In this document: positions 3,482-52,968 of the stretch, piece after piece
How positions within the stretch are numbered: the stretch's first letter is position 1
Layout of the letters: every line of letters starts with the position of its first letter
Assembly: GCA_030524705.1 (NCBI GenBank)
Contig: JAUNGD010000001.1
Span: 88,516-152,515, forward strand
Direction: 5' to 3'
DNA: 64,000 nt
From: Lachnospiraceae bacterium
Lineage (GTDB): Bacteria > Bacillota > Clostridia > Lachnospirales > Lachnospiraceae
Notes under the pieces: generated by a model
What the model saw: only the letters and a program-made list of their open reading frames with translations
Databases searched by the model: none
What the model was told of the DNA's origin: nothing
Translations under genes and position numbers: made by a program

Positions 3482-3541
3482 ATGCAGCGGGACCCTTGTC
3501 CTGGCAGCCTGTTCGGCTCCCGGCAATGGTCCCGTCTGCAT
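3482..3541. terminator. Convergent terminator hairpin
   Basis: A long inverted repeat: 3482-3494 (ATGCAGCGGGACC) pairs with 3528-3541 (one bulged T). It sits between a plus-strand gene ending at 3463 and a minus-strand gene ending at 3544, so it can serve both. T-tracts are weak. Confidence 0.5.
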
Positions 3542-3543
3542 CA

Positions 3544-3732
3544 TCATCCGGCTTTCTTTTTCAGAAGCTTCTTAGTCAGCTTCTTCGCCTTTTTCTTACA
3601 TTTTCCGCAGCCTTTTCCAACCTGAGTTGCTTTTTTTACCTCTTTAAACGAAGAGGCTCCGTTTTCCACTGCCTTGGCGATATCGCCCTTTGTCACTTTG
3701 CGGCAGGAGCAGATTACTTTTTCCTTATTCAT
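3544..3732 (-). CDS. Small [2Fe-2S]-binding BFD-like protein
   Basis: A 62-residue protein with the CxC...CxxC cysteine pattern (C8, C10, C42, C45) of the BFD-like [2Fe-2S] domain, followed by a strongly Lys-rich tail (about 46-60). In characterised bacteria, bacterioferritin-associated ferredoxin passes electrons to a ferritin-like cage so that stored ferric iron is released. Here the gene lies 12 bases downstream of a ferritin gene on the same strand, which makes an iron-mobilising partnership a reasonable inference. The basic tail is unusual for BFD and could dock on the acidic ferritin surface or bind nucleic acid. Confidence 0.8.
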   Translation of the reverse strand: MNKEKVICSCRKVTKGDIAKAVENGASSFKEVKKATQVGKGCGKCKKKAKKLTKKLLKKKAG

Positions 3733-3744
3733 AAGGATACCTGA

Positions 3745-4257
3745 TTAAAGAACGAGGGAGGGAGCGGCATATACCCGGGCGCCCAGCTCGTTGTCCAGCA
3801 TGTACAGGCTCTTCGGATCATCGCCGAACAGCTCATATTTCTTGATCAGGTTGTCTGCGTTGGTCTCTTCTTCACCCTGCTCCTTTACGAACCAGTCCAG
3901 GAACTGCATAGTACGGAAATCCTTTACGGTGTATGCAGCGTCGTAGATGGTGTGAATCAGGGAGGTTACGTACTGCTCATGCTTCAGACCCTCTGAGAGG
4001 ATTGTTTTAGCGTTGTCCAGTACGACGTCCGGCTTTGCAATGGCATCCAGGGTTACCTTCTCGCCGTTGTTCTGGAGATACTGGATGAACAGCAGTGCGT
4101 GGTCGCGCTCCTCCTGAGCCTGGATCTTGTACCAGTTGCCGAATCCGTCCAGCCCGTGGTCATAATAAAAATTGGAAAAGTCCAGATACAGGTAAGCAGA
4201 ATAAAATTCTTTGTTTACCTGCTGATTTAAAAGCTCTACTACTTTTGCGTCTAACAT
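3745..4257 (-). CDS. Ferritin (non-heme, FtnA type)
   Basis: Ferritin oxidises ferrous iron and stores it as a mineral inside a 24-subunit cage. The 170 residues have the family length, and the ferroxidase ligands are in place: Glu17 in the first helix (NKEFYSAYLY), Glu50 and His53 in the ERDH motif, Glu94 and a Gln/Glu cluster in the WFVKEQGEEE helix near 127-135. An AGGAGGACATT motif precedes the ATG at 4257, and a consensus promoter lies 38 bases upstream. The BFD-like gene follows at once, so the two probably form an iron-storage operon. No clear Fur box is visible in the promoter. Confidence 0.96.
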   Translation of the reverse strand: MLDAKVVELLNQQVNKEFYSAYLYLDFSNFYYDHGLDGFGNWYKIQAQEERDHALLFIQYLQNNGEKVTLDAIAKPDVVLDNAKTILSEGLKHEQYVTSLIHTIYDAAYTVKDFRTMQFLDWFVKEQGEEETNADNLIKKYELFGDDPKSLYMLDNELGARVYAAPSLVL

Positions 4258-11150: not shown

Positions 11151-12245
11151 ATGAAGAAGGTAACTGCATTATTAATGGCAATGAGTCTGGCTGTCGGATG
11201 TATCGGAAGTACATGTATGACTGCAGCAGCTGAGGAAGGCGACAAGAAAGAAATCTATGTGCTGATCAGGGCCAGAGGCGATTTGTCCTACTGGGACAGC
11301 ATGGCGGACGGCGGAGACCGCGCCGGAGAGGACTTTGCAGATGAGGCCAACGTACACGTAATTGAGACAACCGATGACAATCAGGCAAATCTGACTGCCA
11401 TGTATGAGGCGGCGGACAACGGCGCAGATCTTATCATTACAGCCGGTGATTTCATTGACAATATGGTAACGGTGGCAGAGGAGTATCCTGACATTTCATT
11501 CCTGATGGTAAATGAAAAGATTGAAGGCTATGACAACATCTATGCGATTGATTTCTCAACGTGTGAGGCCGGCTTCCTGGCTGGTATCGCAGCGGCAGAC
11601 GTGGCTTCCCAGGGACTTGAGGGAACCTCAGGCAACAAGGTTGTCGGCTTTGTCGGCGGTATGGATGAGGTTATAGTTATCCAGGAGTTCTTCATGGGAT
11701 ATATCGCAGGTGCGAAGTATTACGACCCGGAAACTCAGGTTGTATATAACTACGTAGGCGACTGGGGCGACCCGGATACAGGAAGAACGCAGGCTCTGGC
11801 ACAGTACAACGATGCGGGCGCTGATGTGATCTTTGCATGCGCAGGCGGCTCAGGCAACGGCGTTTATCAGGCAGCTTCCGAGGTTGGCAAGTACGTAATC
11901 GGCGTGGACAGCGACCAGTCTCTGAGCTATGCGGAGCAGCCGGAAATTCAGAAGACCTTCGTTACATGCGTGCTGAAGCTGCTCGGAAACGGAATTTACG
12001 ATGTAATCGACACATTCCTGTCTGAGGGCTCTCTGCCCTACGGCGAATACGATATCTTCGGCCTGGCAGAGGATTCTGTAGGCATCGTTGAGAATGACCT
12101 CTTTGATTCCTATGTGTCCGATCAGGGTAAGGCTGCAATCGAAGAAGCAACCCAGAAGATCGTAGACGGTGAGCTTGAGGTATCCGGTGCGCTGGGCAAG
12201 GATCAGGAGACGATTCAGGCAGAGATCGCAGATCTGCTTCAGTAA
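11151..12245 (+). CDS. BMP-family substrate-binding lipoprotein
   Basis: This is the extracytoplasmic receptor of the BMP-type importer. It has a signal peptide (MKKVTALLMAMSLAVGC) with a possible lipobox ending at Cys17 and an alternative signal peptidase I site at TAAAEE. The mature part has the BMP fold pattern, including a DDNQANLTAMYEAADNGADL segment (first lobe) and VGFVGGMDEVIVIQEFFMGY (about 165-185). The ATG at 11151 follows AAGGAGAAAATA; an ORF start at 11091 overlaps the upstream gene and precedes the signal peptide, so it is rejected. A perfect 20-bp terminator hairpin follows. The ligand is probably a nucleoside, inferred from family. Confidence 0.9.
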   Translation: MKKVTALLMAMSLAVGCIGSTCMTAAAEEGDKKEIYVLIRARGDLSYWDSMADGGDRAGEDFADEANVHVIETTDDNQANLTAMYEAADNGADLIITAGDFIDNMVTVAEEYPDISFLMVNEKIEGYDNIYAIDFSTCEAGFLAGIAAADVASQGLEGTSGNKVVGFVGGMDEVIVIQEFFMGYIAGAKYYDPETQVVYNYVGDWGDPDTGRTQALAQYNDAGADVIFACAGGSGNGVYQAASEVGKYVIGVDSDQSLSYAEQPEIQKTFVTCVLKLLGNGIYDVIDTFLSEGSLPYGEYDIFGLAEDSVGIVENDLFDSYVSDQGKAAIEEATQKIVDGELEVSGALGKDQETIQAEIADLLQ

Positions 12246-12260
12246 AGAGCTTTCAGGTTT

Positions 12261-12306
12261 CTTTTTATGATATAGGAAAGTTCTCACTTTCCTATATCAT
12301 AAAAAG
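12261..12306. terminator. Perfect 20-bp terminator hairpin
   Basis: 12261-12280 pairs perfectly with 12287-12306 around a six-base loop. T5 on the left and A5 on the right let it work in both directions, but it mainly closes the BMP operon. Confidence 0.85.
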
Positions 12307-12373
12307 CACTTCGTGCAACGATGCACAGAATTCAAAACAAAATAAAAGGGGGCTGGTAAAGCCCCTAAAAAAG

Positions 12374-12410
12374 AAAGGTCCCTGCCGTGGAAAATGCGGC
12401 AGGGATCTTT
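12374..12410 (-). terminator. Terminator of the aldolase gene
   Basis: A 14-bp stem (12374-12387 with 12397-12410, one G-T pair). On the minus strand the hairpin is followed by CTTTCTTTTTTAGG, placing it as the terminator of the class II aldolase that ends at 12461. Confidence 0.8.
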
Positions 12411-12460
12411 CTATATGTTTTTTCTGATGTCTATTAACACAGATTTAATACAGATGTCTA

Positions 12461-13324
12461 TTAATACAGATCAGCCTTTCCGTCAGCCTGGAACAGCTTG
12501 ATCTTGTGAGCAGCTACTTCCTTCATAGCATCAATACAGGACGGCTGGATCACGTTCGGCTCACGAACGTTCTTGTCCTGAAGTACCTCGCGCATCTGGT
12601 TGTAGTAAGCAACTTTGATGTCGCTGGAGATGTTGATCTTGTTAACTCCGAGCGTTACGGACTCGCCGATCTCGCTGTCCGGGTTGGCAGAACCGCCGTG
12701 AAGTACCAGCGGAGTCTCGGGAACTGCTGCCTTGATATCCTTCAGGATGTCCAGACGAAGCTTCGGATCTACGCCCTTCGGGTAAATGCCGTGGCAGGTA
12801 CCGATGGCGATAGCCAGGCAGTCAACGCCTGTAGCCTCGATGAATTTCTTTGCGTCCTCCGGGTCGGTATATTTGATGACCTTAGAGCCAGCTTCTCCGA
12901 AATCATCAGCGGTACCGATGGTGCCAAGCTCGCCCTCAACGGAAACATTTACCGGGTGAGCAGCAGCTACGACCTTCTGGCAAACAGCGATGTTCTCCTC
13001 GAAGGGAAGGGAAGAGCCGTCGATCATAACGGAGGTAAAGCCGTTCTGGATAGCCAGAAGCACCTGCTCATAGGATGCGCCGTGATCCAGATGGATAACG
13101 CTCGGAACTGTGGATTTATGTAAGCGCTCAACGATAGCTTTTACCATTTCTACTCCGATGTGCTTCAGCTCGTCTGGATGGATAGCAATGATGATCGGAG
13201 CATTCAGCTCTTCGGTAACCTCCATCAGACCCTTAAACATGGAATAGTCGCTGACGTTGAATGCGGGTACAGCAAAATTGTTCTTGTTTGCAACTGCAAG
13301 TAAGTCCTTCATGTTCATTAACAT
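12461..13324 (-). CDS. Class II (Zn-dependent) ketose-bisphosphate aldolase
   Basis: Class II aldolases cleave fructose-, tagatose- or related ketose bisphosphates into dihydroxyacetone phosphate and an aldehyde. The 287-residue protein shows the IHLDHG motif (catalytic Asp80, zinc ligand His81), VEGELG (130-135), and further zinc ligands His178 (IGTCHGIYPKG) and His209 (LVLHGGS). Length and motifs fit the KbaY/GatY/Fba group, but the specific bisphosphate cannot be assigned. AGGAGGAAG precedes the start. It is divergent from the lyxose isomerase and epimerase genes, suggesting a shared sugar pathway. Confidence 0.92.
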   Translation of the reverse strand: MLMNMKDLLAVANKNNFAVPAFNVSDYSMFKGLMEVTEELNAPIIIAIHPDELKHIGVEMVKAIVERLHKSTVPSVIHLDHGASYEQVLLAIQNGFTSVMIDGSSLPFEENIAVCQKVVAAAHPVNVSVEGELGTIGTADDFGEAGSKVIKYTDPEDAKKFIEATGVDCLAIAIGTCHGIYPKGVDPKLRLDILKDIKAAVPETPLVLHGGSANPDSEIGESVTLGVNKINISSDIKVAYYNQMREVLQDKNVREPNVIQPSCIDAMKEVAAHKIKLFQADGKADLY

Positions 13325-13379
13325 AGTAACTTCCTCCTGAATAAAATAGATTTATTTGAGTAATATTGCTTACTTCTTT

Positions 13380-13408
13380 ATAATAAATGAAATCTTCGTG
13401 AATGTCAA
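13380..13408 (-). promoter_or_regulatory. Promoter of the aldolase gene
   Basis: On the minus strand TTGACA (13403-13408), a 17-base spacer and TATTAT (13380-13385) sit 55 bases upstream of the aldolase start. Confidence 0.78.
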
Positions 13409-13524
13409 GAAGTGTGTGGAGGAAAAGACAAAATATTCACAAAAAAATCGAAAAATAATTGTGCATAACTTACAAAAATAGAGAAAAGCCGTAAAAATAA
13501 TTTTCGTAAAAACGGTGTTTTGGG

Positions 13525-30002: not shown

Positions 30003-31289
30003 ATGTACCGCAATATTGCAAATAAGGGAAAAAATCTGTTGGATATACAAGCCGAAAACCGTTCTCTGATTTTACGGCTGATGAAGTACAAAAAAATCTG
30101 TGCCCGGACAGAGCTGGCGCAGCTCAGCGGGCTGAAGCATGCCACGATCACGAATATCATCAATGAATTTATCAAATACGGCCTGGTGGAGGAGAAGGGG
30201 ATCATTGCCGGAAAAAAGGGCCGGCGTTCCATCGGCATCTCCCTGGACAGCGACCGGTACGCCGTGGCCGGAGTAGCCGTTTTTCGTTTGTATGCCGTGG
30301 CCGGGCTTTTTAATCTGCGGGGGGAATTGCTGAAGGCGAAAAAAATCTCCTTCAAGGGGCTGGAACGGCCGGCGGATTTTATTGCCCTGACGATCCGTGA
30401 GACCTCCAATATGGTAATAGAAGAAAAAGGCCGGGAGATCCTGGCCGTCGGAGTGGCCGTCCCCGGGCCGTATTATCAGGATTCGGGAAGCTCTGATCTG
30501 ATCCAGGGATACCCGGATTGGGGAGAGGTAGGCGTGCGTGCGGAGTTCGAACGTGCATTTCCCATACCGGTGGTGGTGGAACAGGATGCAAATATGGCTG
30601 CTCTGGCGGAATGGAGCGGCCGGATGGAGGATATGCAGCAGGATACGCTGGTATATCTGTCGGTGGACCAGGGAGTCGGCGCCGGCATCGTGCAGGGCGG
30701 CCAGATCTTCCGGGGCGGCCTGGGGACGGCCGGAGAGATCGGACATATCAGCGTTGACTATGACGGAGAGAGGTGTATTTGCGGAAACCGGGGCTGCGCC
30801 ACGGTGCAGGCTTCCACGATCCGCTTTATGAAAATGGTGGAAAAGCGGCTTCAGGCTGGAGAGACTTCTGTTCTGACGGAGGGATTTGAATGGCCGGAGC
30901 TGGTGGAGGCGGTGAAGCAGAGGGACGGCGCGGCGTATGCGGAGTATCAGAGAATGGTATTATATATAGGAAGAGTTGTCGCCAATATCATCTGGGCCTA
31001 CGGGCCACAGTATATCGTTTTGGGCGGCGGGATGGCGAGGATCGGGGAAGATTTTGTCCGGGATCTGAGGCAGTATGTGGTGGAAAATATGGCGGCTTCC
31101 ATGGCAGAGCGGGTGGAGATTCTTCTGGATGAAAAGGATCAGATACTGAACGGCGCCGGGCTGCTGGCGACGGAGTATGTATTTGAGCATATGGAGCTGT
31201 TTGAGAAGAAATCGGAAAAGTCAAGAGTAAATGCTAAAAAAGTCAAAAAAATTTATGAAGCCCCCAAAAGTGCGGTTATATGTTGCTGA
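30003..31289 (+). CDS. ROK-family transcriptional regulator, 3' end altered by the junction
   Basis: A ROK-type repressor (428 residues) with an N-terminal winged helix (about 20-80, TELAQLSGLKHATITNIINEF) and a kinase-like C-terminal domain. It has a sugar-binding motif VPGPYYQDSG, the zinc-binding CICGNRGCA (about 252-260) and a GGGMARIGE phosphate-binding loop (about 340-348). I chose ATG 30003, preceded by AAGAGG; GTG 29985 has no ribosome binding site. The last 25 or so codons (after ELFEKKSEKS) are Lys-rich and then enter the terminal sequence of the mobile region, overlapping the transposase 3' end by 37 bases, so the native C terminus was probably replaced. Confidence 0.87.
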   Translation: MYRNIANKGKNLLDIQAENRSLILRLMKYKKICARTELAQLSGLKHATITNIINEFIKYGLVEEKGIIAGKKGRRSIGISLDSDRYAVAGVAVFRLYAVAGLFNLRGELLKAKKISFKGLERPADFIALTIRETSNMVIEEKGREILAVGVAVPGPYYQDSGSSDLIQGYPDWGEVGVRAEFERAFPIPVVVEQDANMAALAEWSGRMEDMQQDTLVYLSVDQGVGAGIVQGGQIFRGGLGTAGEIGHISVDYDGERCICGNRGCATVQASTIRFMKMVEKRLQAGETSVLTEGFEWPELVEAVKQRDGAAYAEYQRMVLYIGRVVANIIWAYGPQYIVLGGGMARIGEDFVRDLRQYVVENMAASMAERVEILLDEKDQILNGAGLLATEYVFEHMELFEKKSEKSRVNAKKVKKIYEAPKSAVICC

Positions 31290-32302
31290 AATACCTGCCC
31301 GGAAGTCAAAAAGCCGAGGATTTTCCGTGGGTAGTTATTGATCCATGTGGTGATAGCTTCGAGCACTTCGTCGGTGAGTTCGTCGAAGTTCGTCCCCTTT
31401 GGCAGCCAGCGCCGGATCATTTTGTTTACATTCTCATTGCTGCCGCGTTCGTATGAGCTGTACGGGTGGCAGTAATAGCATTTTGTCCGGGAGCCCTCGC
31501 CCAGTGCGCTGCGCTCAATGCCGGGGCAGTCCGAAAACTCGCTGCCGTTGTCTACGGTGATCGTGCGGAACACTTGCGGGAACTTTTCGCCCCATTCGCG
31601 CTCCAGATCGTCGAGAGCCTGCACCACGCTGGCGGCGGTTTTGTCTGGGAGCTTGGCCGTGATCTCGTCGCGGGTGAGTCTCTCGGTCAGCACCAGAATG
31701 GCGGCTTTGCCCGGTCTTGCACTTACTACTGTGTCCATTTCCCAGTGCCCGAAGGTGGATCGCTCGTCGATTTCCTCCGGGCGCTTTTCTATGCTGTCGC
31801 CTTTTGAGGCGCGTTTCTGCTCCTTCACTTTATGATATTGGCGTTTCTTATTTCCTTTTACGGGGAGGTCTTTATTTGTGAGCCTGAGAAAAACGCCTTT
31901 TTCTATATAGCTGTAAATGGTGTTTTTGCTCTTTATCTCAGTGTCAAATTCAATTCCCTGCGCTTTAATCTCGCCCAGAACGGCCTCCGGACTGTACTTT
32001 TCGTCTGCGATCTTGTGCTCTATGTAGTCGGCCAGCTTTTGGTCTTTGCCGATTTTGAGATCCGCGCCTTTGGCAGCGAGGTGAGCCCGGTATTTCATTT
32101 CTGCGAGATCGGAGCTGTATCGGGTTTCCTCTGTGTAGTCGCTGTTTCGGTGCTGATACTCGCCGCGTTTCTTCTCTCGGTACACGGTGGAAATATGGAC
32201 GCCGATCGACTCGGCGATCTCCTTCGGTTCTTTACCGTCCCGGAGTTGCTGCTCAATGCGGATCCGGTCGCTTTTGGTTAAGTGTTTGAAACGTCGTGCC
32301 AT
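31253..32302 (-). CDS. IS30-family transposase
   Basis: A 349-residue DDE transposase. It has an N-terminal IS30-type helix-turn-helix (about 3-45, KSDRIRIEQQLRDGKEPKEIAESIGVHISTVY, given here in two parts as RDGKEPKEIAES and GVHISTVYRE) and a catalytic core with Asp in GHWEMDTVV, Asp in ITVDNGSEF and Glu in the YSSYERGSNENVN segment. The ATG at 32302 follows GGAGGTAAAGAAC; the ORF extends further up but without a ribosome binding site. The gene is intact. It overlaps the ROK gene tail to tail. I could not define matching terminal inverted repeats, so it may be a lone transposase gene of the prophage and not a separate IS. Confidence 0.88.
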   Translation of the reverse strand: MARRFKHLTKSDRIRIEQQLRDGKEPKEIAESIGVHISTVYREKKRGEYQHRNSDYTEETRYSSDLAEMKYRAHLAAKGADLKIGKDQKLADYIEHKIADEKYSPEAVLGEIKAQGIEFDTEIKSKNTIYSYIEKGVFLRLTNKDLPVKGNKKRQYHKVKEQKRASKGDSIEKRPEEIDERSTFGHWEMDTVVSARPGKAAILVLTERLTRDEITAKLPDKTAASVVQALDDLEREWGEKFPQVFRTITVDNGSEFSDCPGIERSALGEGSRTKCYYCHPYSSYERGSNENVNKMIRRWLPKGTNFDELTDEVLEAITTWINNYPRKILGFLTSGQVFQQHITALLGAS

Positions 32303-32322
32303 GTTCTTTACCTCCATAAATT

Positions 32323-32352
32323 GAAAAAGAGAGGCGGCAAAAGCCACCCCTC
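32323..32352 (-). terminator. Terminator of the XRE gene
   Basis: On the minus strand GGTGGC and GCCGCC arms around TTTT, followed by TCTCTTTTTC. It lies just after the XRE stop and before the transposase start. Confidence 0.7.
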
Positions 32353-36663: not shown

Positions 36664-37023
36664 CTAGCTTTCGTAAATTGACTCGATCCCCTGTCTGGTG
36701 AGGAAGTCCTTCTGATCGTGCTTTACTTTCGTTGCGTAGTCTAGCGCCGCGTGCATGTCTCCGTTGCAGTTGGCGTCCGGGATCCGCTGCACGGCTCTGG
36801 CCGTAGCCTCTCCGAGCGCAAGCGCAGCGTTTACGCCCTGCACCAGAAAGAGCTCCTGCTGTTCGCGCAGCTTTTCCCGCTTTTCTTCGGTGTCGCGCCG
36901 TTCGCTTTCTTCCGCTTCGCGCTTTTTGGCCTGTTTCTGGATCTTCTGTTCAATGCACCAGAAACAAAATCCAGTGATCGCCGAGGGAAGGCAGGCGATC
37001 AAAAGTGTGGTTAATGTGTCCAT
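36664..37023 (-). CDS. Small phage membrane-anchored protein, lysis module
   Basis: A 119-residue protein starting at ATG 37023 (after GGAGGTGAACAC). It has an N-terminal membrane segment (about 3-20, LTTLLIACLPSAITGFCFW) and a long charged helix (about 25-60). The rest is helical with a C terminus reading LTRQGIESIYES. It may be holin-like. Its ATG overlaps the end of the reverse transcriptase gene by 13 bases, so it is probably translated from the same mRNA as the DGR. Confidence 0.65.
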   Translation of the reverse strand: MDTLTTLLIACLPSAITGFCFWCIEQKIQKQAKKREAEESERRDTEEKREKLREQQELFLVQGVNAALALGEATARAVQRIPDANCNGDMHAALDYATKVKHDQKDFLTRQGIESIYES

Positions 37024-38138
37024 GTGTTCACCTCCTGAGACGGTTCGCCGTCTTTGCGTTTGAAAATTATGTTTTTCTCGATCCACTTCTGGAGCCCGTG
37101 CGTGGTGCAATGCCCCAGCATACCGAAGTAGCTCTGCATGGTTGCGTCTACCGCCTCGAAGTTGATCCAGCCTGCTTCGTATTCCTTAGCAATGTAGCGC
37201 ATACGCGCCTTCATTTTCTTGACTGATTTCGGCGTCGGTTTGCGGCTTCCGGGATAGATCCGGCAGCCTACGAAGGTGATCCCTCTGCATACGAGACCGA
37301 TCGTGGTCTTGCTGTTAAGTTCGAGGTGCAGCACGTTATTGAGATAGCTCTCGATCAGCACGCGCCACTCATTCAGCACTCTGGCGTCAGGGTGGAGAAG
37401 CACCATGTCGTCCATATACCGAACATAAAAACGGGCTTTCAACTCGTGCTTGATGTACTGATCCAGTTCATTGAGGCAGACGTTCGCAAGTAGCTGGCTG
37501 GTGAGGTTCCCGATCGGCATACCTACCTCAAAGAGCCGCTCAGAGGGCGGCACTTCGTCGGCATTTACGCCCGGCGGCAGCCCGAACGGCGTATGGTCGC
37601 AGCACACGATCGTGCGCATGAGCCAGAGAAAACCGTCCTCGGTCGGATATTTTCGCGCTAAAATACCGAGTAGCACCTCATGGTCTACCCGGTAAAAGTA
37701 TTTTGAAATATCCAGTTTTAAGTAGTGCCAGCGTTCCGCTTTGCGGTCTACGAGGGCACACCAGTATTGCAGCCGGTCGGCCGCTCTGGTGGTTCCTTTT
37801 CCGACTCTGCACCCGTATGAGTGGTAGATCATGCCATTGTCAAGCTCGCGGTTTATTTGCAGGTAAATGGCCCATTGTACGACGCGATCGCGGAAGCCCA
37901 GCGCCATAATAAGCCGTTTCTTTGGCTCTGTGACGTAAAACTGCCGGTAGCGGCCCACTTTATAGGTGCGCCACATGAGGTCGTTCTGTATGGCGATCAA
38001 GTTTTCCTCCAGATTTGCCGAGAACGCCGACACGTCGGTGCGGTACCATTTCTCGCTTGCTGCTTCGTGGTATGCGTTGAGAAGATTTTCCCACGAATAA
38101 ATACGCCCCAGAAGGGAAGGGCGAGGCGTTTCTGTCAT
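37011..38138 (-). CDS. DGR reverse transcriptase
   Basis: A 375-residue reverse transcriptase that copies the template repeat RNA and introduces errors at adenines. Catalytic residues are Asp143 in motif A (LKLDISKYFYRVD) and the YMDD box at 241-244 (FYVRYMDDMVLL). Motif 4 reads MPIGNLTSQ (207-215); the SQ ending is the DGR-type signature, where group II intron and retron enzymes usually show QGxxxSP. There is no maturase, thumb-linked endonuclease or RNase H domain, consistent with a DGR. GGAGTAAGGAC precedes the ATG at 38138. It lies 310 bases downstream of the template repeat, the usual order. Confidence 0.95.
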   Translation of the reverse strand: MTETPRPSLLGRIYSWENLLNAYHEAASEKWYRTDVSAFSANLEENLIAIQNDLMWRTYKVGRYRQFYVTEPKKRLIMALGFRDRVVQWAIYLQINRELDNGMIYHSYGCRVGKGTTRAADRLQYWCALVDRKAERWHYLKLDISKYFYRVDHEVLLGILARKYPTEDGFLWLMRTIVCCDHTPFGLPPGVNADEVPPSERLFEVGMPIGNLTSQLLANVCLNELDQYIKHELKARFYVRYMDDMVLLHPDARVLNEWRVLIESYLNNVLHLELNSKTTIGLVCRGITFVGCRIYPGSRKPTPKSVKKMKARMRYIAKEYEAGWINFEAVDATMQSYFGMLGHCTTHGLQKWIEKNIIFKRKDGEPSQEVNTWTH

Positions 38139-38447
38139 GTCCTTACTCCTTCCATTTTTTCAAAGATATAGCCCGCGTGTGACAATCCTCGGTGCAGCCG
38201 TTCCCCTGCGGTTGCCGCACCGCAGGATCCCGGTTGCCCTTCTACCTGTTTTTTCGCAGGTAACGGCCAGCCTGCGCGGTTTGCCCGTTGCTCCCGGTGG
38301 CCTCCACCGGCGAGCTGCCGCCATGACGTCCCCGTCAATGAGCTGCGCGGGCGTTGATCTTTGGCCTTGTCGGCCGGGAAATATGCCCCTTTTGCCTTGG
38401 TGTTCCTGCTGAGCCGTAGCCCGCAGGCAATAAACAAATAAGGCAAG
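38139..38447 (-). ncRNA. DGR template-RNA spacer between the template repeat and reverse transcriptase
   Basis: No credible gene lies between the template repeat and the reverse transcriptase. In studied DGRs this downstream spacer is part of the template RNA and is needed for cDNA priming and copying. Here it is GC-rich and has a small hairpin with ACCTG and CAGGT arms around 38250. GC-driven open frames run through in two phases, but neither has a ribosome binding site or a protein-like composition. The RNA limits are not known. Confidence 0.5.
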
Positions 38448-38564
38448 AGCGGGCCGGAAGCCGATGTTCGTGTTCGAGTTCGTGCGGGAGTTGTTGCCGT
38501 TGAGGTAGAACACGCCAGCGTTCGTGCCGTTGTTCCAGTTGCCCCCGCGATACACGCAGCGCTC
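38448..38564 (-). repeat. DGR template repeat (TR)
   Basis: This 117-bp region aligns without gaps to 39038-39154, the last part of the variable protein gene. Read on the coding strand it holds ten AAC codons, the adenine-rich codon favoured in template repeats because single-base changes reach almost all residues. It differs from the variable repeat at 16 sites, all adenines here. Of 27 adenines, 11 are unchanged; none of the other 90 positions differ. It lies between avd and the reverse transcriptase. The run of GGCTTCCGGCCCGCT at the 3' end is the likely initiation-of-mutagenic-homing segment. Confidence 0.95.
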
Positions 38565-38593
38565 CTTTTTCTCGGCATATTCCCCACGGGTTA

Positions 38594-38944
38594 TCACTCA
38601 CTCGACTTTTTCCAGCCGCCGATCATGCACCCGATTTCATTTAGTTCTTTGCTCCATACTTCATGGAGCCCCGGAGAGATCAGACGATCTTCCGGTGAGA
38701 CTGCCGTGTCTACCAGAGAGCGCAGCACGTCCAGCTTGGTGTCCATTTTGTCTTGCAGCTCTTTTCTTTTCTGGCTTCCGGCCCTCAGCCGGTTGGCCTC
38801 AATGCAGAGCTCCAGCATGTCCATGAACGCGGCCGTCATGTGCTTGCGGTACTCGAATTTTTCCGGCTTCCGCATGTTTGCGGTGCGTTCGCTCACGCGG
38901 ATCATGGAGCGGACGATCTTTTGCCGTAGTCGTAAATTATCCAT
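38594..38944 (-). CDS. avd: DGR accessory variability determinant (Avd-like)
   Basis: A 116-residue, entirely helical, strongly basic protein with the size and composition of Avd (about 13 Arg and 14 Lys residues). Avd forms a barrel-like pentamer that binds the template RNA and the reverse transcriptase and is required for mutagenic retrohoming in the Bordetella phage. Its place between the variable protein and the template repeat is the standard one. GGAGCAACTA precedes the ATG (38944). Its TGA overlaps a GTG of a frame that runs through the template repeat. The family call rests on size, charge and position. Confidence 0.85.
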   Translation of the reverse strand: MDNLRLRQKIVRSMIRVSERTANMRKPEKFEYRKHMTAAFMDMLELCIEANRLRAGSQKRKELQDKMDTKLDVLRSLVDTAVSPEDRLISPGLHEVWSKELNEIGCMIGGWKKSSE

Positions 38945-38964
38945 TAGTTGCTCCTTTATGGTGG

Positions 38965-38990
38965 AGGGGCGGCTTGGGTGGGCCGCCCCT
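38965..38990. promoter_or_regulatory. GC-rich hairpin downstream of the variable repeat
   Basis: AGGGGCGGC (38965-38973) pairs with GCCGCCCCT (38982-38990) around an eight-base loop, 24 bases after the variable protein stop and 48 bases after the variable repeat. In the Bordetella phage DGR a hairpin or cruciform just downstream of the variable repeat helps target recognition. There is no T-tract on the minus strand, so a terminator role is less likely. The loop here is longer than the tetraloop known there. Confidence 0.55.
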
Positions 38991-39013
38991 TACCAGATTT
39001 TCAGATTGCCAGA

Positions 39014-40117
39014 TTACCCGATTACCTCCGGGATAAAAGCGGGCCGGAAGCCGATGACCGCGCTCGAGAACGGGCGGGAGAGGTAGCCGTTGAGGGAGAA
39101 CACGCCAGCGTTCGGGCCGCTGAACCAGTCGCCCCCGCGATACACGCAGCGCTCGGCTACGCCGTTATTCCACCAGAAATAATCGCCCTCATAGTCAGCC
39201 TCGACCGCTCCTTCGTCCGGGAGTAACGCCAGAGAGCGGAGCAGCACCTTGGCGGCGTCGCCGATCGCAGCGGTGCAGGTGACTTTTCCGAACGTGCAGC
39301 CCCGGCCTTTGTCGGACGAACTGGTCACGGTGGTAGTGTACGTCCAGATGTTGTTCACATAGTCCAGCTTCACGGTGTTGCCGGAGAGCTTGGCCGAGGT
39401 ATCGGTGGTGTGGCACTCAGGCTCTACAAGGGAGCCGTCGGCTGCATTGATCGCCTTCCAGCAGGTGCTCGTCGCGTTCTGCGGGTTGTCAGGATCGGCT
39501 GCGTCATTATTGGCAAGGATCTGGAGCTCGCCCCATACCAGACGGAGGCCGCCCTGCCATTCCCAGACGTTGCCGTTCAGATCCCAGATACCGGAGAGAG
39601 TTTTGTCGTGGCTCCACGTCAGCGGGCCGGTGCCGGTCGCTACATGGGCGGTTCTGCCGTCACTCTCGAAGGTGGTCGGGATCGCTTTATAATTGCTTTC
39701 GCGGCTGTCCTTGCCGTAGTTGTTGTTGCCGTATGGCATAAAGCCGTTTTTCTTGCACCAGAGGGCGATCGCGGCCCACTCGGCGTTCGTGCTGAGGTGC
39801 CAGCCGTGGCCCTTAGCCTCGCAGCGTGCGCGGGCGGTGTCGAAGTTTAGGCTTGCAGAAGGATCCTCCCCCGGCAGACTGTACGCCACGTTGTTGTAGG
39901 TGGTTGCCTGATACTTGCCATAATAAAATCCGGCGATCTGGACGCCGTTCACGATAAAGGCCGGGTGAATGGAGTCATTGCCTCCGGCCAGCACGTCGCT
40001 GTTCTTAAATGCCGGGATATACACCAGCACCGACGGCAGATCGGTGTCGTCTACCTTGGCGACGTTATTCGGGCAGATCATTTTTACTGCCAGATTGGTG
40101 AGATCAAAATTTGCCAT
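39014..40117 (-). CDS. DGR variable protein, FGE/C-type-lectin-like tail tip
   Basis: A 367-residue protein whose middle and end resemble formylglycine-generating-enzyme-like C-type lectin folds used by DGR target proteins (WDLNGNVWEWQGGLRL around 187-202, and RGGDWFSGPNAGVFSL at the end). The C-terminal variable repeat covers residues 322-360, closing with IGFRPAFIPEVIG. Twelve of its 39 residues differ from the template-encoded version, and they sit in the exposed loop region expected for ligand binding. It lies directly after tail-fibre-region genes in the late operon, so it is probably the receptor-binding or fibre-tip protein. FGE enzymatic activity is not expected. Confidence 0.92.
   Translation of the reverse strand: MANFDLTNLAVKMICPNNVAKVDDTDLPSVLVYIPAFKNSDVLAGGNDSIHPAFIVNGVQIAGFYYGKYQATTYNNVAYSLPGEDPSASLNFDTARARCEAKGHGWHLSTNAEWAAIALWCKKNGFMPYGNNNYGKDSRESNYKAIPTTFESDGRTAHVATGTGPLTWSHDKTLSGIWDLNGNVWEWQGGLRLVWGELQILANNDAADPDNPQNATSTCWKAINAADGSLVEPECHTTDTSAKLSGNTVKLDYVNNIWTYTTTVTSSSDKGRGCTFGKVTCTAAIGDAAKVLLRSLALLPDEGAVEADYEGDYFWWNNGVAERCVYRGGDWFSGPNAGVFSLNGYLSRPFSSAVIGFRPAFIPEVIG
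39038..39154 (-). repeat. DGR variable repeat (VR)
   Basis: The 117-bp target of mutagenic homing, inside the variable protein gene (codons 322-360). Relative to the template repeat it carries 16 substitutions, all at template adenines and going to T, C or G, and 12 amino acid changes: N to D, F, S, Y, L, F, S and V, T to P twice, T to A, and Y to S. GC-rich flanks (GAGCGCTGCGTGTATCGCGG at the start, GGCTTCCGGCCCGCT at the end) are identical in both repeats. Confidence 0.95.
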
Positions 40118-46188: not shown

Positions 46189-49100
46189 ACTGGGCCACCT
46201 CCCGCATTTGAATAAATTCCTCCAGCCAGTCGAAGAACTCTGCCTCGTGAGCCCGCAGCCGAGCCATGAGGTCGTCCTCGTCGCCTCCGGTGTTGCCCGT
46301 CTGGATCTGTGGGCTCCATGTGAAGCCGGAAAAGTCGTAGTAAATCACCATGCTGTTATTGTCTGCCAGACTTCCCAGTGAGAAGTTGTCCAGAGTCAGC
46401 AGTTCCCCGGCCTTGCTTGTGAGCCCTGCGTCAGAGGTTCCTCCGGTTGTGCTTGCGCTGTTGAATACGGCCCGGATCATTGTCTCCAGCTTCTCCCAGA
46501 GAGTTGCAAGAGGCACCACGGCCTCAGCTCCAGCCTCGCCACCGGCCAGAAGTGTGTTGCCAGCCGCTCCGAAGATCGTCGGCTGCGTTAAAATACCGCC
46601 TTCCTTGTACCATGAGATCCCGAAGTGCGGGACGCTCGGCGGGTTGATCGAGAAGCTGCCGCTTATGCTGATATGCGGTAGCTTTAAGCTCGGCAGGCTC
46701 CACGAGAAATTAAACTTTGATTTCAGGGCGCTGATCGCGTTCCCTACGGCGTTTTTGGCCGCCTCCATTTTGCCGCTGATTGTCGAGTAGATACTGGAGA
46801 ACTTACTCGACACGGTGCTAAACGCAGAACTCAGGTTGGAGCTCATGGACGAGGTGATCCCGCTCATCATACTGGAGACGGTGGCCTTTGCGCTGCTCAG
46901 CTTGCTGCTGATTGTGCTTCGTATGCTTTCCCACTTGGAGGAAGCGGCCGTGCTGATCGTTGACCATGCGGAGCTTGCCACGCTGCTGATCGCGCTGGTG
47001 GCTGTACTGACAGCCGACTTTGCGGCGTTGATCTTGGTGCTGATCGTACTCTGCACCGTGCCCCATAGTGAGGAAGCGGTGGAGCTGATACTTGACCATG
47101 CGGACGAAGCCACGGACTTGATCGTGCCTGTCACGGTGCTGACAGTTTGCTGCGCTGCGCTCAGCTTTGAGCCGATTGTACTCTTAGTGGTTTCCCATAA
47201 GGTCGAAGCGGTAGAGCTTACGCTTGACCATGCAGACGAGGCCACGGACTTGATCGTGCCGGTGACGGCGCTCACTTTTTCCTTTGCCGCGTCTATTTTT
47301 GAGCCGATTGTGGACTTTATGCCCTCCCAGACGGTCGAGGCGGTACCCTTGATCGCGTTCCATGCGGAGCTTGCCACGCTGCTGATCGCGCCAGTGACAT
47401 TGCTCACAATGTTTTTTGCAGCTTCCAGCTTTTCACTGATAAATGACTTTATAGCGTCCAGTGCGCCGGAGATTGTGGACTTTATGCCCTCCCAGATAGA
47501 GAGCACGGTGTCCTTGCAGTTTTCCCAGATAAACCGGAAGGGGAGAGTGATTAAGGAAAAAGCGGCGCTGATGATTTCTTTCACGGCCATAATGCCGACT
47601 TGCACCACGTTTTTGATCGTCTCCCATGCCTCTGAGAGAAAAGAGGTCACGGACTCCCATATATTCGTGAATTTATCCTTGATCCCGTTCAGGGTATCGG
47701 AGAAAAACGAGGTTATGGAGTCCCACACGTTCGCAGCGGTATTTTTGATACCTGTCATTATTCCAGAAAAGAACGAGGCGATCCCGTTCCAGATCCCGGA
47801 AAATGTGTTTTTAATTCCAGTCATGACGCCGGAGAAAAACGAGACAATCCCGTTCCAGACGTCCTCGAAAAAGCTCTTGACGCTGCTCCATGCTTCGTCC
47901 CAACTACTACCGAACCAGCCCAGAACAGTGTCGGCCAGTGATTTGAATGTATCGATCCAGTTTTGGAAGGTTGACACTACAAAATCCCAGACGCCCCCGA
48001 AGATTTCCTGCACGCCTTCCCAGACGCGATCCCAGTCTCCGGTGAAGATCCCGGCGAACACGTCGAACAGGCCGACGAGCACGTCGAGGACTACGCTCAG
48101 AATATTGCTGATCTGCTGAAATACGCCCTCGAAAACAGGGGCCAGCAGCTCGCAGAAGCCGTCCCAGACTGCGCTCAGCACCTCCGTGAAGTTTTCAAAA
48201 TCGAAGCCCAGCTCGTTGAGCTTGTCGGTGATTGTCTGACCGAACGCCTCAAATTTTCCCTTGATCCCTTCCCAGATTGCTGTGATTTTCTCCCGGAACT
48301 CTTCATTGTTGCGCCATAAATTCGTAAAAGCGGCAGCGAGAGCGGCCACTACGGCGATCACGGCCAGTACCGGCGCAGAGACGCCGCCTAGAGCGGTTAT
48401 TACTCCCGTTATGGCTCCCTTGATCTGGCCGATCTTTGTCACAATAGATCCCCATTTCATAGCGGCCACCACCGCGCTGAGTGTTCCCAGTATTATGCCG
48501 ACTTCCGGCAGGTGGCTGAGGATCCACTGGACGGCCGGTGCTACCTGAGCGTTGACGAAGTTCACGGCATTTTTTACCGCCGGTGTGAGCTTCTGGGCGA
48601 TTGGCTGCACGACTTCGGACTTGATGGTGCGGCCGAGCTGAGAGAGCGAGCTCTCCAGCGTGTCATAGGCTGCGCTGTCCATTTTTGCCATAGCGTCGGC
48701 GGTGCTGTTGATTGCGCCTTCTGTGTCCATGAGGGAGGCTACGGTTTCAGCGCCCAGATCCTCCCACATAGTACCGAACAGGCCCACGCCGTCGGTATAT
48801 TGTTTGGTGGCGTCGTCGCAGCTCATAAGGGCTTCCATGACGGTGTTGATCGCTTCCTGAGCCTCCGGGCCGCCCTTGTTGAATTGTTCGATCACGGCGT
48901 CCACGTCCAGCCCCAGATCCTTTAGGTAGTCGTTTGCGGTTCCGTCGCTCATTCTGATGTTGAACTCCTTCACCGCGTCGCCCAGCTTATCCACTGACCA
49001 TGTGCCGGACTCTGCGCCGTTTGCCAGCATGTTGAACATATCGTCGGCAGAATATCCGGCGTTTTTGAACTGGACGCTGTACTCGTTGATCGTGTCCAGC

Positions 49101-51495: not shown

Positions 51496-52968
51496 TTATT
51501 CAGTCTCGAAGAAGGCAGCGAAGCCTTCGTCGGTGTAGCACACGCGGGCGGTGCCAGATTTGAACGGCGGCGTGTTGGTGACGGAGAAGTCCCACACGAA
51601 GTCCCCGTTCATCATATCGCTGACAGGGTTCGCAGTTTCCAAAAACTCCACCGTCGGCGTACCGATCAGGGCTCCGATCCCCGTGAGTGTGTCGAGTTTC
51701 TGCTTCTCGAAGTTCAGGATCGTGTCTTTATCCTGCGGAGTCATGGGGCTGTCGATCTCGGTTCCGTGGTCGATCTGGAAGCTGTTCGTGATGTGCATGA
51801 GCATACGCAGGTTTACGTCGAAGATCGCGCGTGCGTCCATGTTGCCGTTGTAGGTGTAGGCTGCGGTGTGCGGGCCCCAGAGTACCCACTGGCCGCCCCA
51901 GAAGCAGGCGGTGGTGATCCCCTTTTCATTCAGGCCGTTGGCGGTCTGCTGATCGAAGCCCCGGCTCTTGGAGTTTTCCCCGAAGAACTGGCTTGTTGCC
52001 ATGATCTCCTTATTGGACGGGGACTCAAACGGCACGCCGTCGTGGCTCAGGTCTACGCGCAGCATGGTGACCTGTCCGGCCGTCGAGAGGTGAAACACGC
52101 GGCCGCTACCGTCCTTGATTTTCGGCCAGTATACCTTCGAAAACTCACTGGTGTAGCCGTTGTCCTGCTTCCACTTGATTGCCTTTTCGATCGTGTTGAT
52201 CGCTGCGCCCTCAGAGTCTACCAGAGGAATGTCGGCATTGACGAAGCCGTCCCAGTGCCCGTTGAGCTTCTGGACGGTGCTCACCATAGCTTTGTAAACT
52301 TCGGGAATATGGCTCCAGCCGGGAGCCGCCAGCATGTTGAGTACGGCGTTGTGGTACTGGTAGAGCAGGCTCATGGCGTGCAGCCCTGTGTACTGGCCGT
52401 CGGCGGTGGTCTGGCCGATAATGTCGGCAGCTTCCACCTGCTCAGTGTCTACGGTATCATAGCTGCACTGGAGCGCTGCGCTTCCTGCTTCTTTGAGCAG
52501 TTTCACCACGACGGTGCCCTTTGCGAAGTTATACTCCAGAGAGTAGTCCACGCCCTCGGCCTTGTCAGCGATCGCGAAGCTGTCCAGAATAATATCGGAG
52601 CTTTCAAACTCTGCCCGCAGGTTGGTGAACGTCAGCTCCTTTGTGGTTTTTGCCGTCGCCTTGTGAGTATCGGGATCCAGTACATTGACGACGTAGATCG
52701 GGCCCACGTTTCCGACGGTGTTGTCGAAGTGCTCGGCGAAGGCTTCGCAGAGAGTGAAGCCCTCCCAGTCTCCAGAGTAGCCGAGCTTGCTCTGTGTGTC
52801 GCTCATGTTGGCGACTTTGATCGGCATATTGACGAGATTTTTCTCAGCATAGCCACGGATCAGGTTAATGGGTGCGGTGCCGATATATGCGGCTACCACG
52901 TCGGCCTGAGTTGCCGCGCTTACCTTGCTGTTCATGAGCTCGCCGTATGTGCCATGTTTGTATGCCAT
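51496..52968 (-). CDS. Phage contractile tail sheath protein
   Basis: A 490-residue sheath protein, the hallmark of a myovirus tail. The family patterns VVAAYIGTAPINLIRGYAEK near the N terminus, an EKAIKWKQDNGYTSEFSKVYWPKIKDG segment (listed as IKWKQDNGYTSEFSKVYWPK), and the C-terminal NLRMLMHITNSFQIDHGTEI with the final MNGDFVWDFSVTNTPPFKSG are visible. It forms the contractile cylinder around the tube. Confidence 0.93.
   Translation of the reverse strand: MAYKHGTYGELMNSKVSAATQADVVAAYIGTAPINLIRGYAEKNLVNMPIKVANMSDTQSKLGYSGDWEGFTLCEAFAEHFDNTVGNVGPIYVVNVLDPDTHKATAKTTKELTFTNLRAEFESSDIILDSFAIADKAEGVDYSLEYNFAKGTVVVKLLKEAGSAALQCSYDTVDTEQVEAADIIGQTTADGQYTGLHAMSLLYQYHNAVLNMLAAPGWSHIPEVYKAMVSTVQKLNGHWDGFVNADIPLVDSEGAAINTIEKAIKWKQDNGYTSEFSKVYWPKIKDGSGRVFHLSTAGQVTMLRVDLSHDGVPFESPSNKEIMATSQFFGENSKSRGFDQQTANGLNEKGITTACFWGGQWVLWGPHTAAYTYNGNMDARAIFDVNLRMLMHITNSFQIDHGTEIDSPMTPQDKDTILNFEKQKLDTLTGIGALIGTPTVEFLETANPVSDMMNGDFVWDFSVTNTPPFKSGTARVCYTDEGFAAFFETE

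Follow-up and report, generated by a model that had tools for sequence, protein, structure and literature searches.

The 64,000-nucleotide stretch analysed here (the window), from a Lachnospiraceae bacterium, carries the components of a diversity-generating retroelement (DGR) on its minus strand. A variable protein of the C-lectin/FGE type (target 1, T1; 367 aa, 39014..40117), encoded in the tail module, is followed by the accessory protein Avd (116 aa, 38594..38944), the template repeat (TR; 38448..38564, 117 nt with 27 adenines) and the reverse transcriptase (RT; 375 aa, 37011..38138). The RT, Avd and target frames are all open, and the canonical order target-Avd-TR-RT given in the original prediction is borne out. 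Recomputing the alignment of the TR with variable repeat 1 (VR1; 39038..39154, minus strand) reproduced the figures given there: 117/117 positions align without a gap, 16/27 template adenines are changed against 0/90 other positions, and 12 in-frame residue changes in T1 result. The substitutions comprise 7 A>T, 5 A>G and 4 A>C, and their restriction to adenines has a hypergeometric P of 6.5e-13. The contractile-tailed prophage proposed as the setting is supported by a sheath gene (51496-52968) and baseplate proteins.

The RT frame is intact and its translation contains both motifs reported for it, YMDD and MPIGNLTSQ. It matches RVT_1 (1.4e-20), phrog_1423 reverse transcriptase (3.9e-142) and the solved reverse transcriptase structure 8ub7 (1.9e-41), and at E <= 0.001 the genome has no other RT match. 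Avd matches bAvd (1e-12), phrog_3206 (3.1e-36) and, above the cut-off, NF033474 DivGenRetAVD (9.1e-26); a search of solved structures returned none matching it. Between the TR and the RT lies a conserved and structured spacer RNA (38139..38447, minus strand), for which an alignment of 16 sequences shows covariation. The alignment contains 41 pairs with 97.4% of cells paired, and two-sided changes occur at 18/41 pairs versus a shuffled mean of 6.7. Four of the five measures were reached by 0/500 shuffles; the fifth, further pair types, was reached by 204/500. The adenine-only change, the DGR-type RT, the Avd protein, a target of the C-lectin type, the structured spacer RNA and variable repeats that follow the TR of their own phage mark the DGR of this contractile-tailed prophage as complete and, as judged from its sequence, apparently working. 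The cassette itself is ordinary for its family.

The prophage is split over two contigs of an assembly that comprises 145 contigs and is 88% complete. Its left end is marked by a 15 bp attachment core (31198..31212, plus strand), which is repeated in the same orientation on a second contig (C68:16519-16533). Next to the core lies an IS30-type transposase gene (31253..32347, minus strand; phrog_4646 transposase, 6.5e-149; 81% to the Lagaffe gene), which is probably the integrase. The contig ends of the two prophage halves map to neighbouring genes, gp65 and gp64, of Faecalibacterium phage FP_Lagaffe (NC_047911), and the gene order matches Lagaffe across both halves. In total 67 ORFs match Lagaffe with a median of 69.7% and are colinear by inspection, some of these ORFs being overlapping wrong frames. 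The gene order, attachment site and probable IS30-type integrase held in common identify a Lagaffevirus-like prophage. It is nonetheless a phage other than Lagaffe, since DNA identity is 75.7% over 39.1 of 49.3 kb aligned.

A search of the genome with the TR, suggested in the original prediction as a way of finding further variable repeats, identified three strong TR-like places, one of which is a second variable repeat (VR2) on C68. The original prediction described VR1 correctly and overlooked VR2, which lies where the prophage continues on C68, so that the cassette is not confined to one target. VR2 differs from the TR at 16/26 adenines and 0/79 other positions, and its target gene (T2) lies about 9.9 kb away on the circularised phage map. 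The idea that C68 holds a separate DGR, or a gene of the host, was rejected on the attachment repeats, contig ends and gene order. The fragmented and incomplete assembly might suggest that C68 derives from another phage or from contamination, making VR2 foreign to this DGR. This is very improbable given the co-oriented attachment repeat, the contig ends at adjacent Lagaffe genes, the agreement of VR2 with the TR at 79/79 non-adenine sites, and the fact that Lagaffe itself shares this gene order and has two targets.

Comparison with relatives indicates that both variable repeats follow the TR of their own phage at nearly all non-adenine sites. Across 21 TR/VR pairs from this phage and its relatives, a count that leaves out 10 further TR-bearing loci lacking an ungapped pair, 305/506 adenines are changed versus 17/1699 other positions. 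Among 8 phages, 21 non-adenine columns of the TR are variable; there VR2 matches the TR of its own phage in 168/168 cells and VR1 in 126/126 (6 phages), and over all non-adenine sites VR2 agrees with it at 640/644. Lagaffe and a near relative, L306, are identical in the T2 flanks at 556/588 and 292/300 positions and differ in VR2 at 17/102, with 17/17 differences at TR adenines. Similarly, the flanks of L253 and L254 are identical at 597/600 and 300/300 positions, and VR2 differs at 16, of which 13 are TR adenines. Of the 34 stretches returned by a pattern search of IMG/VR, 21 lay on contigs that were already part of the set. The differences between close relatives and the agreement of variable repeats with their own TR lend indirect support to mutagenic homing. 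Overall, it is very probable that a single DGR serves two recipients, VR1 and VR2.

In L287 and L290, VR2 is letter-identical to a VR1 of another contig, possibly through assembly chimerism or through VR-to-VR exchange. Pairs that include L290 are weakened by this identity, and L282/L290 was demoted as an example of VR2 hypervariation. In the present phage 14/16 VR2 changes are A>G. A distinct mutation spectrum at VR2 was considered and rejected: A>G accounts for 68/106 changes at VR2 (8 phages) versus 52/105 at VR1 (7 phages), and the difference (P = 0.037) is too weak.

On profile matches alone, T1 and T2 are targets of the C-lectin fold. Both match phrog_2889 (1.1e-137 for T1, which also matches FGE-sulfatase at 1.9e-5), and their family profiles match the TaqVP structure 5vf4 at 3e-106 (T1) and 1.2e-109 (T2). 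T2 is a paralog of T1 that, according to a crude hydropathy scan, has no hydrophobic leader, and approximately 14 N-terminal residues conserved in T1 are absent from it by eye. In this phage T2 continues for 132 residues behind VR2. Such a C-terminal extension is not universal, since T2 of L193, L256 and L258 stops shortly after the variable repeat.

Immediately behind VR1, starting at the T1 stop codon, is a tract of three repeats of about 8 nt, TAATCTGG CAATCTGA AAATCTGG (38993..39016, minus strand), each built around TCTG. At least 3 TCTG within 60 nt behind the repeat are found for 48/50 variable repeats versus 0/27 template repeats. The tract is noncoding behind VR1 and lies inside the reading frame behind VR2, where it encodes a Ser-Gly-Asp-rich linker. 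Within the T2 linker the serine codon TCT is used in 14/14 cases versus 17/137 elsewhere, and the serine and leucine codons deviate from gene-wide usage, although these counts are not independent because the related sequences share ancestry. Synonymous resampling of the T2 linker of this phage reached 4 TCTG in 0/20000 draws.

We consider it probable that in the Lagaffe-like family this tract, present behind variable repeats and absent behind template repeats, acts as the homing signal (IMH function). A less likely but serious alternative is that the tract is no homing signal but a protein linker, or a relic inherited by related phages: the Ser-Gly-Asp-rich coding in T2 would fit, TCTG is missing behind the variable repeat of many DGRs that are more distantly related, and for BPP-1 a hairpin is the known element (PMC3240598). 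A linker role does not readily accommodate the noncoding copy behind VR1, the position of the tract at the protein end in the short T2 forms L193 and L258, its absence behind all 27 template repeats examined, or the unusual codon choice.

A GC-rich inverted repeat read by eye downstream of VR1 (38966..38989, minus strand; 8-bp arms, 8-nt loop) has no GRNA in its loop and is not a hairpin of the BPP-1 type; no clear hairpin was seen by eye behind VR2. A GATA-loop hairpin is present in Dulem virus 37, and the end of the BPP-1 variable repeat can be read by eye as tract-like. Among relatives of the RT, repeat arrays with various cores accompany 18/51 non-redundant variable repeats versus 0/58 template repeats. 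The generality of such tracts beyond Lagaffe-like phages is supported by this count as a lead only, because the 7-9 nt spacing of the search was chosen after the sequences had been inspected. None of the literature found, as far as titles and abstracts go, states repeat arrays behind variable repeats.

The gene settings of the two targets differ. T1 is most likely a tail-tip receptor binder. T2 of this phage lies co-directionally in an early replication and recombination operon; a DnaQ-like exonuclease gene covers most of it, and Erf, SSB and replication genes come next. The T2 gene has exonuclease, Erf, SSB or replication genes as neighbours in 22/23 distinct contigs, 18 of which show an overlap with the exonuclease gene. 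T2 is accessory, as it is missing from the relatives G061 and G074, which keep the exonuclease and Erf. The favoured reading, at perhaps an even chance, is that T2 acts within the cell as a binding protein made early and absent from the virion, directed at host defence or at competing phages; its localisation is read from gene order and the crude hydropathy scan.

That T2 is instead a second virion receptor-binding protein, expressed from an unusual gene position, is an appreciable possibility. Both variable repeats would then serve host range, as has been suggested for the two Lagaffe targets, described as Mtd-like, in PMC11792537. Membership of T1 and T2 in one fold family would agree with such a role, as would the report of Lagaffe virions also from a Blautia culture (PMC5883640). 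The replication-gene neighbours and exonuclease overlap, the missing T1 N-terminal residues and the 132 residues behind VR2 point away from it. It is unlikely that VR2 is a passive by-product, a functionless T1 duplicate still attracting cDNA. Some relatives lack T2 and one contig, G048, has a frame-breaking indel at VR2; on the other hand, several phages preserve T2 as a long open frame, at 60-69% identity, its gene position is fixed, and the TCTG tract is held in frame by codon choice.

The original prediction that this copy may be undescribed holds for the copy itself, but its closest relative has been published: the Lagaffe DGR, its activity and its second variable repeat are described in PMC5883640 and PMC11792537. 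Lagaffe likewise has one TR and two variable repeats. Its cassette is ordered in the same way among the same neighbouring genes and is 79% identical in DNA, and the protein identities are 83% (RT), 78% (T1) and 61% (T2). Both Lagaffe variable repeats are reported to show raised variation and adenine loss among cognate genomes; for the prophage Lagaffe_CP no read variation was seen at the variable repeats in the limited data of that study (PMC11792537), yet there was variation among cognate genomes. The main text of PMC11792537 nowhere uses the words 'early', 'exonuclease' or 'non-structural', and thus does not treat the position of the second Lagaffe target in the early operon in such terms.

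Among other DGRs, that of BPP-1 (NC_005357; PMC3240598) shares the order target-avd-TR-RT and the VR/TR logic, its RT (Brt) being 32% identical; it has one target and a GRNA-loop hairpin 3' of the variable repeat, whereas the conserved 3' feature here is the TCTG-repeat tract and the VR1 inverted repeat has another loop. The Quimbyvirus DGR (PMC8008677) also has a pair of C-lectin targets, of which one is structural and the other, far away, probably non-structural. Defence-related genes neighbour this second target, which is encoded on the opposite strand, and the RT is frameshifted, in contrast to the co-directional early-operon target and single open RT frame seen here. The gut phage DGRs of nd4/nd12 with tentaclins (PMC10743442) likewise join one TR to two targets, but the variable repeat of their target 1 is near the N-terminus and followed by Ig-like domains, whereas T1 and T2 both belong to the TaqVP type of FGE/C-lectin proteins. 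Proposed here are the early-operon reading of the second target and a role for the TCTG tract; the DGR type and the Lagaffe relative were known.

In the mechanism we propose, one DGR of a Lagaffe-like temperate contractile-tailed phage would feed two genes, T1 in the tail module and T2 in the early operon. By analogy with known DGR biology, the avd-TR-spacer RNA would be bound by RT and Avd and copied to cDNA with errors opposite adenines, and the mutated cDNA would replace the variable repeat. The phased TCTG-repeat tract just behind the variable repeat, missing behind the TR, would mark the recipient copy.

Tentatively, then, one DGR may serve two infection stages by diversifying both a tail entry protein and an intracellular early-operon binder, with recipients marked by a phased array of repeats of about 8 nt, not by a hairpin; the IMH might generally take the form of such an array. 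If this is true, the phage would hypermutate an intracellular binder much as it does its receptor binder. T2 recurs at a fixed place in Lagaffe-like phages, and Faecalibacterium prausnitzii A2-165, a strain in culture, carries a relative of it in the phage Lagaffe; an early-operon target bears on what role non-tail DGR targets play in phages. The tract, kept behind both recipients even in coding sequence against codon usage, offers a concrete candidate for how the variable repeat is told apart from the template.

The template repeat (TR, 38448–38564) and the variable repeat of the tail-module target gene T1 (VR1, 39038–39154), both on the minus strand, align over 117 nt without a gap. On recomputing, as in the original prediction, the two differ at 16 of the 27 TR adenines and at none of the other 90 positions, with 12 residue changes in the variable protein. 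The changes comprise 7 A>T, 5 A>G and 4 A>C (hypergeometric probability of all 16 falling at adenines 6.5e-13), and a scan of the window for places matching more than 60% of the TR non-adenine letters returned TR and VR1 only. The remaining parts of the diversity-generating retroelement (DGR) are open frames on the same strand. The reverse transcriptase (RT, 37011–38138) carries the YMDD and MPIGNLTSQ motifs claimed for it, matches RVT_1 (1.4e-20) and phrog_1423 'Reverse transcriptase' (3.9e-142), and is 32% identical to Brt of BPP-1. The accessory protein Avd (38594–38944) matches bAvd, phrog_3206 and NCBIfam NF033474, the last above its cut-off. T1 (39014–40117) matches the FGE-sulfatase domain, and its family profile matches structure 5vf4 (3e-106), a Thermus aquaticus DGR variable protein (PMC6328139). 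The TR itself lies inside open frames of 145–150 codons that resemble the T1 C-terminus (38135–38597, minus strand); most likely these reflect the TR mirroring the VR and are not genes.

The predicted contractile-tailed prophage is borne out by tail sheath and baseplate genes among the phage genes at 41–63 kb, where tape measure, portal, capsid and terminase genes are also found. The window ends with its contig, C72, in a genome of 3.87 Mb and 145 contigs, and the other part of the prophage occupies bases 1 to about 16.5 kb of a second contig, C68. Among phage records, Faecalibacterium phage FP_Lagaffe (hereafter Lagaffe) comes closest, with 79% identity over the cassette. Since the first C68 gene and the last matched C72 gene map side by side in Lagaffe (46514–46978 and 47194–47967), the two contigs abut in the phage map. 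Both parts carry a 15-bp repeat in the same orientation: at window position 31198 it neighbours an IS30-type transposase, and at C68:16519 the last phage gene. The prophage measures at least 49.3 kb, of which 39.1 kb align with Lagaffe at 75.7% identity. The transposase (window 31253–32347) and a small HTH gene (C68 16154–16429), which flank the attachment site at opposite prophage ends, have an N-terminal HTH in common and both match phrog_4646 and phrog_11420.

A genome-wide search with the TR, the route suggested for finding further variable repeats, returned one. The strong matches are TR, VR1 and C68:13797–13901 (VR2), the next match having E = 0.03. Compared from TR position 13, 16 of the 26 TR adenines are changed in VR2, and the 79 other positions all agree. 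It lies in T2 (C68:13398–14702, minus strand; 434 residues from the ATG common to relatives, 466 in the longest frame), a T1 paralog of the same family by its phrog_2889 match, whose family profile matches 5vf4 at 1.2e-109. A simple hydropathy scan found no hydrophobic leader in T2. VR2 and TR are about 9.9 kb apart on the circular phage map, across the attachment site; in Lagaffe the second-target gene is gp40 and the distance 9.6 kb. A>G accounts for 14 of the 16 VR2 changes versus 5 of 16 in VR1, a difference that is weak across phages (68/106 versus 52/105).

On the minus strand of C68 the gene order is HTH, a 359-aa protein, T2, a DnaQ/RNase_T-type 3'-5' exonuclease (12677–13414, minus strand, overlapping T2), a cell-wall-hydrolase-like protein, Erf, SSB and replication genes. 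T2 adjoins such early genes in 22 of 23 distinct contigs (27 loci), some of which are near copies of one another. The exonuclease gene is overlapped by T2 by a few bases in 18 of the 23 and directly follows it in L194, while other early genes stand next to T2 in L193, L256 and L258. In Dulem virus 37 (L313) the second target lies among small unknown genes, also away from the tail genes. The DGR targets and TR region of this virus (740–1819, 2345–2560 and 11785–12930) are annotated as calicheamicin/enediyne biosynthesis, probably misannotated FGE/C-lectin folds. T2 is not universal among relatives: T2-type matches (E below 1e-100) occur in 9 of 33 records searched, most of them fragments; none is shown in G061 and G074, though exonuclease and Erf are kept, or in G007, whose contig ends near Erf.

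Eleven phages with T2 were tabulated and eight used, leaving out G073 and G078 (no TR in hand) and G048 (VR2 indel). Between the eight, 21 non-adenine TR columns vary, and VR2 equals its own TR in 168/168 cells, as does VR1 in 126/126 (six phages); over all non-adenine sites the agreement of VR2 is 640/644. Among 14 T2 loci, flank identity exceeds 93% in nine pairs. Their VR2 differences per 102 positions number 17 (Lagaffe/L306), 16 (L253/L254), 0 (L282/L286), 16 (L304/L311), and 15, 30, 15, 27 and 30 in the other five; by inspection, pairs with 27 to 30 differ in TR type too. The differences fall at TR adenines in 17/17 cases for Lagaffe/L306, 13/16 for L253/L254 and, with the TR taken from related contigs, 15/16 for L304/L311 and 13/15 for L282/L290. 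Taking this phage and its relatives together, 21 TR/VR pairs (20 VR1, one VR2) show change at 305/506 adenines and 17/1699 other positions. No ungapped pair came from 10 further TR-bearing loci, in several cases owing to 3-nt VR1 insertions or deletions or a cut locus.

In two metagenome contigs, L290 and L287, VR2 is letter-identical over 102 nt to VR1 of L036 and L035, on other contigs; the other 19 distinct VR2-class repeats listed are at least 11 changes from any VR1. Chimeric assembly could explain this identity, as could real exchange between VR1 and VR2, and L290 is therefore not relied on. Two relatives have frame-breaking indels in the VR region, L045 in T1 (3500–3800) and G048 in T2 (L298/L257). 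Either homing truly went wrong there or the hypervariable sequence was misassembled.

Behind VR1, from the T1 stop codon on, the sequence reads TAATCTGG CAATCTGA AAATCTGG (window 38993–39016), and a similar run of TCTG repeats behind VR2 is translated within T2 (TACTCTGGCAACTCTGGAAATCTGGATAATCTGG). At least three TCTG within 60 nt follow 48 of the 50 VRs caught by the search pattern (the exceptions being L313 and L049) and 0 of 27 TRs, against about 0.9% of random windows; one TCTG is present in 8/27 TRs. Outside the pattern-caught set, two TCTG occur in each of L046, L048 and L050, and none in most of the distant DGRs. Spacing is about 8 nt in noncoding sequence and mostly 9 nt where the frame must hold. 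In the first 15 linker residues of T2 (eight distinct linkers, leaving out six duplicates and three without a clean frame), TCT encodes Ser in 14/14 cases (17/137 in the rest of these genes) and CTG encodes Leu in 16/20 (89/214 in the rest); in L304 a Ser immediately beyond the 15 residues uses AGC. With synonymous codons drawn from each gene, the four TCTG of the C68 linker were reached in 0/20000 draws, and the eight linkers reached their own number in 0 to 8 of 20000. The tract DNA itself thus seems to be under constraint, subject to the caveat that the linkers are related to each other. The natural reading is that the tract would be a recipient mark like the IMH (homing mark) in this Lagaffe-like family.

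A wider survey of RT relatives yielded a TR/VR pair from 84 of 160 loci. Chains of 4-mers at 7–9 nt spacing (shuffle P <=0.05) stand behind 18/51 non-redundant VRs versus 0/58 TRs (Fisher P = 1.7e-7). At lag 8, z is 5.9 for the sequence behind VRs and 1.7 for that behind TRs; removing four Lagaffe-like rows gives z 4.6. Elevated values also occur at lags 7 and 15, and a lowered one at lag 11. Since the spacing was picked after seeing the data, repeat arrays as a general feature behind VRs are a lead only.

The 309 nt that separate TR from RT form a conserved RNA. Its consensus fold has 41 pairs, with 97.4% of cells paired across 16 sequences (the L117 row is ~20 nt short), a measure favoured by the structure having been taken from the alignment tested. 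Changes on both sides affect 18 pairs, versus a shuffle average of 6.7 (0/500 as high) and 2 to 5 with partners slid. Of five measures, four lie above all 500 shuffles, and the remaining one, further pair types, is reached by 204/500.

As to novelty, this is a new copy, as had been supposed, of a DGR kind already described: published accounts report the Lagaffe DGR with variable reads of its VR (PMC5883640) and a second Lagaffe VR (PMC11792537), the VRs of Lagaffe_CP showing no read variation in limited data (PMC11792537). Quimbyvirus has a target pair of one structural and one probably non-structural protein (PMC8008677), and other gut phages have two DGR targets (PMC10743442); target surveys (PMC8144416, PMC6642488) and further DGR literature (PMC7290462) are available. 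Nowhere in the literature searched, in partial texts and mostly outside subscription papers, was the second target of Lagaffe-type phages stated to lie in the early operon, or a repeat array described as marking the homing site.

Judged by sequence, the parts needed for mutagenic homing are present in this phage. Errors at adenines would arise as an avd-TR-spacer RNA is copied into cDNA, which would then replace the VR; error-prone copying and VR replacement are known from BPP-1 (PMC3240598, PMC12875486). T1, given its tail-module location and its family, would be the receptor binder, and T2, given its operon, would act inside the cell; for Lagaffe, targets of both types have instead been suggested to be two Mtd-like host-range proteins (PMC11792537). 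PMC12875486 reports that the BPP-1 stem-loop is not strictly required, that where the target lies with respect to the origin makes a difference, and that the single-strand exonuclease ExoI inhibits a DGR reconstituted in E. coli. The overlap of an exonuclease gene with T2, set beside this inhibition by ExoI, merits a test and nothing beyond.
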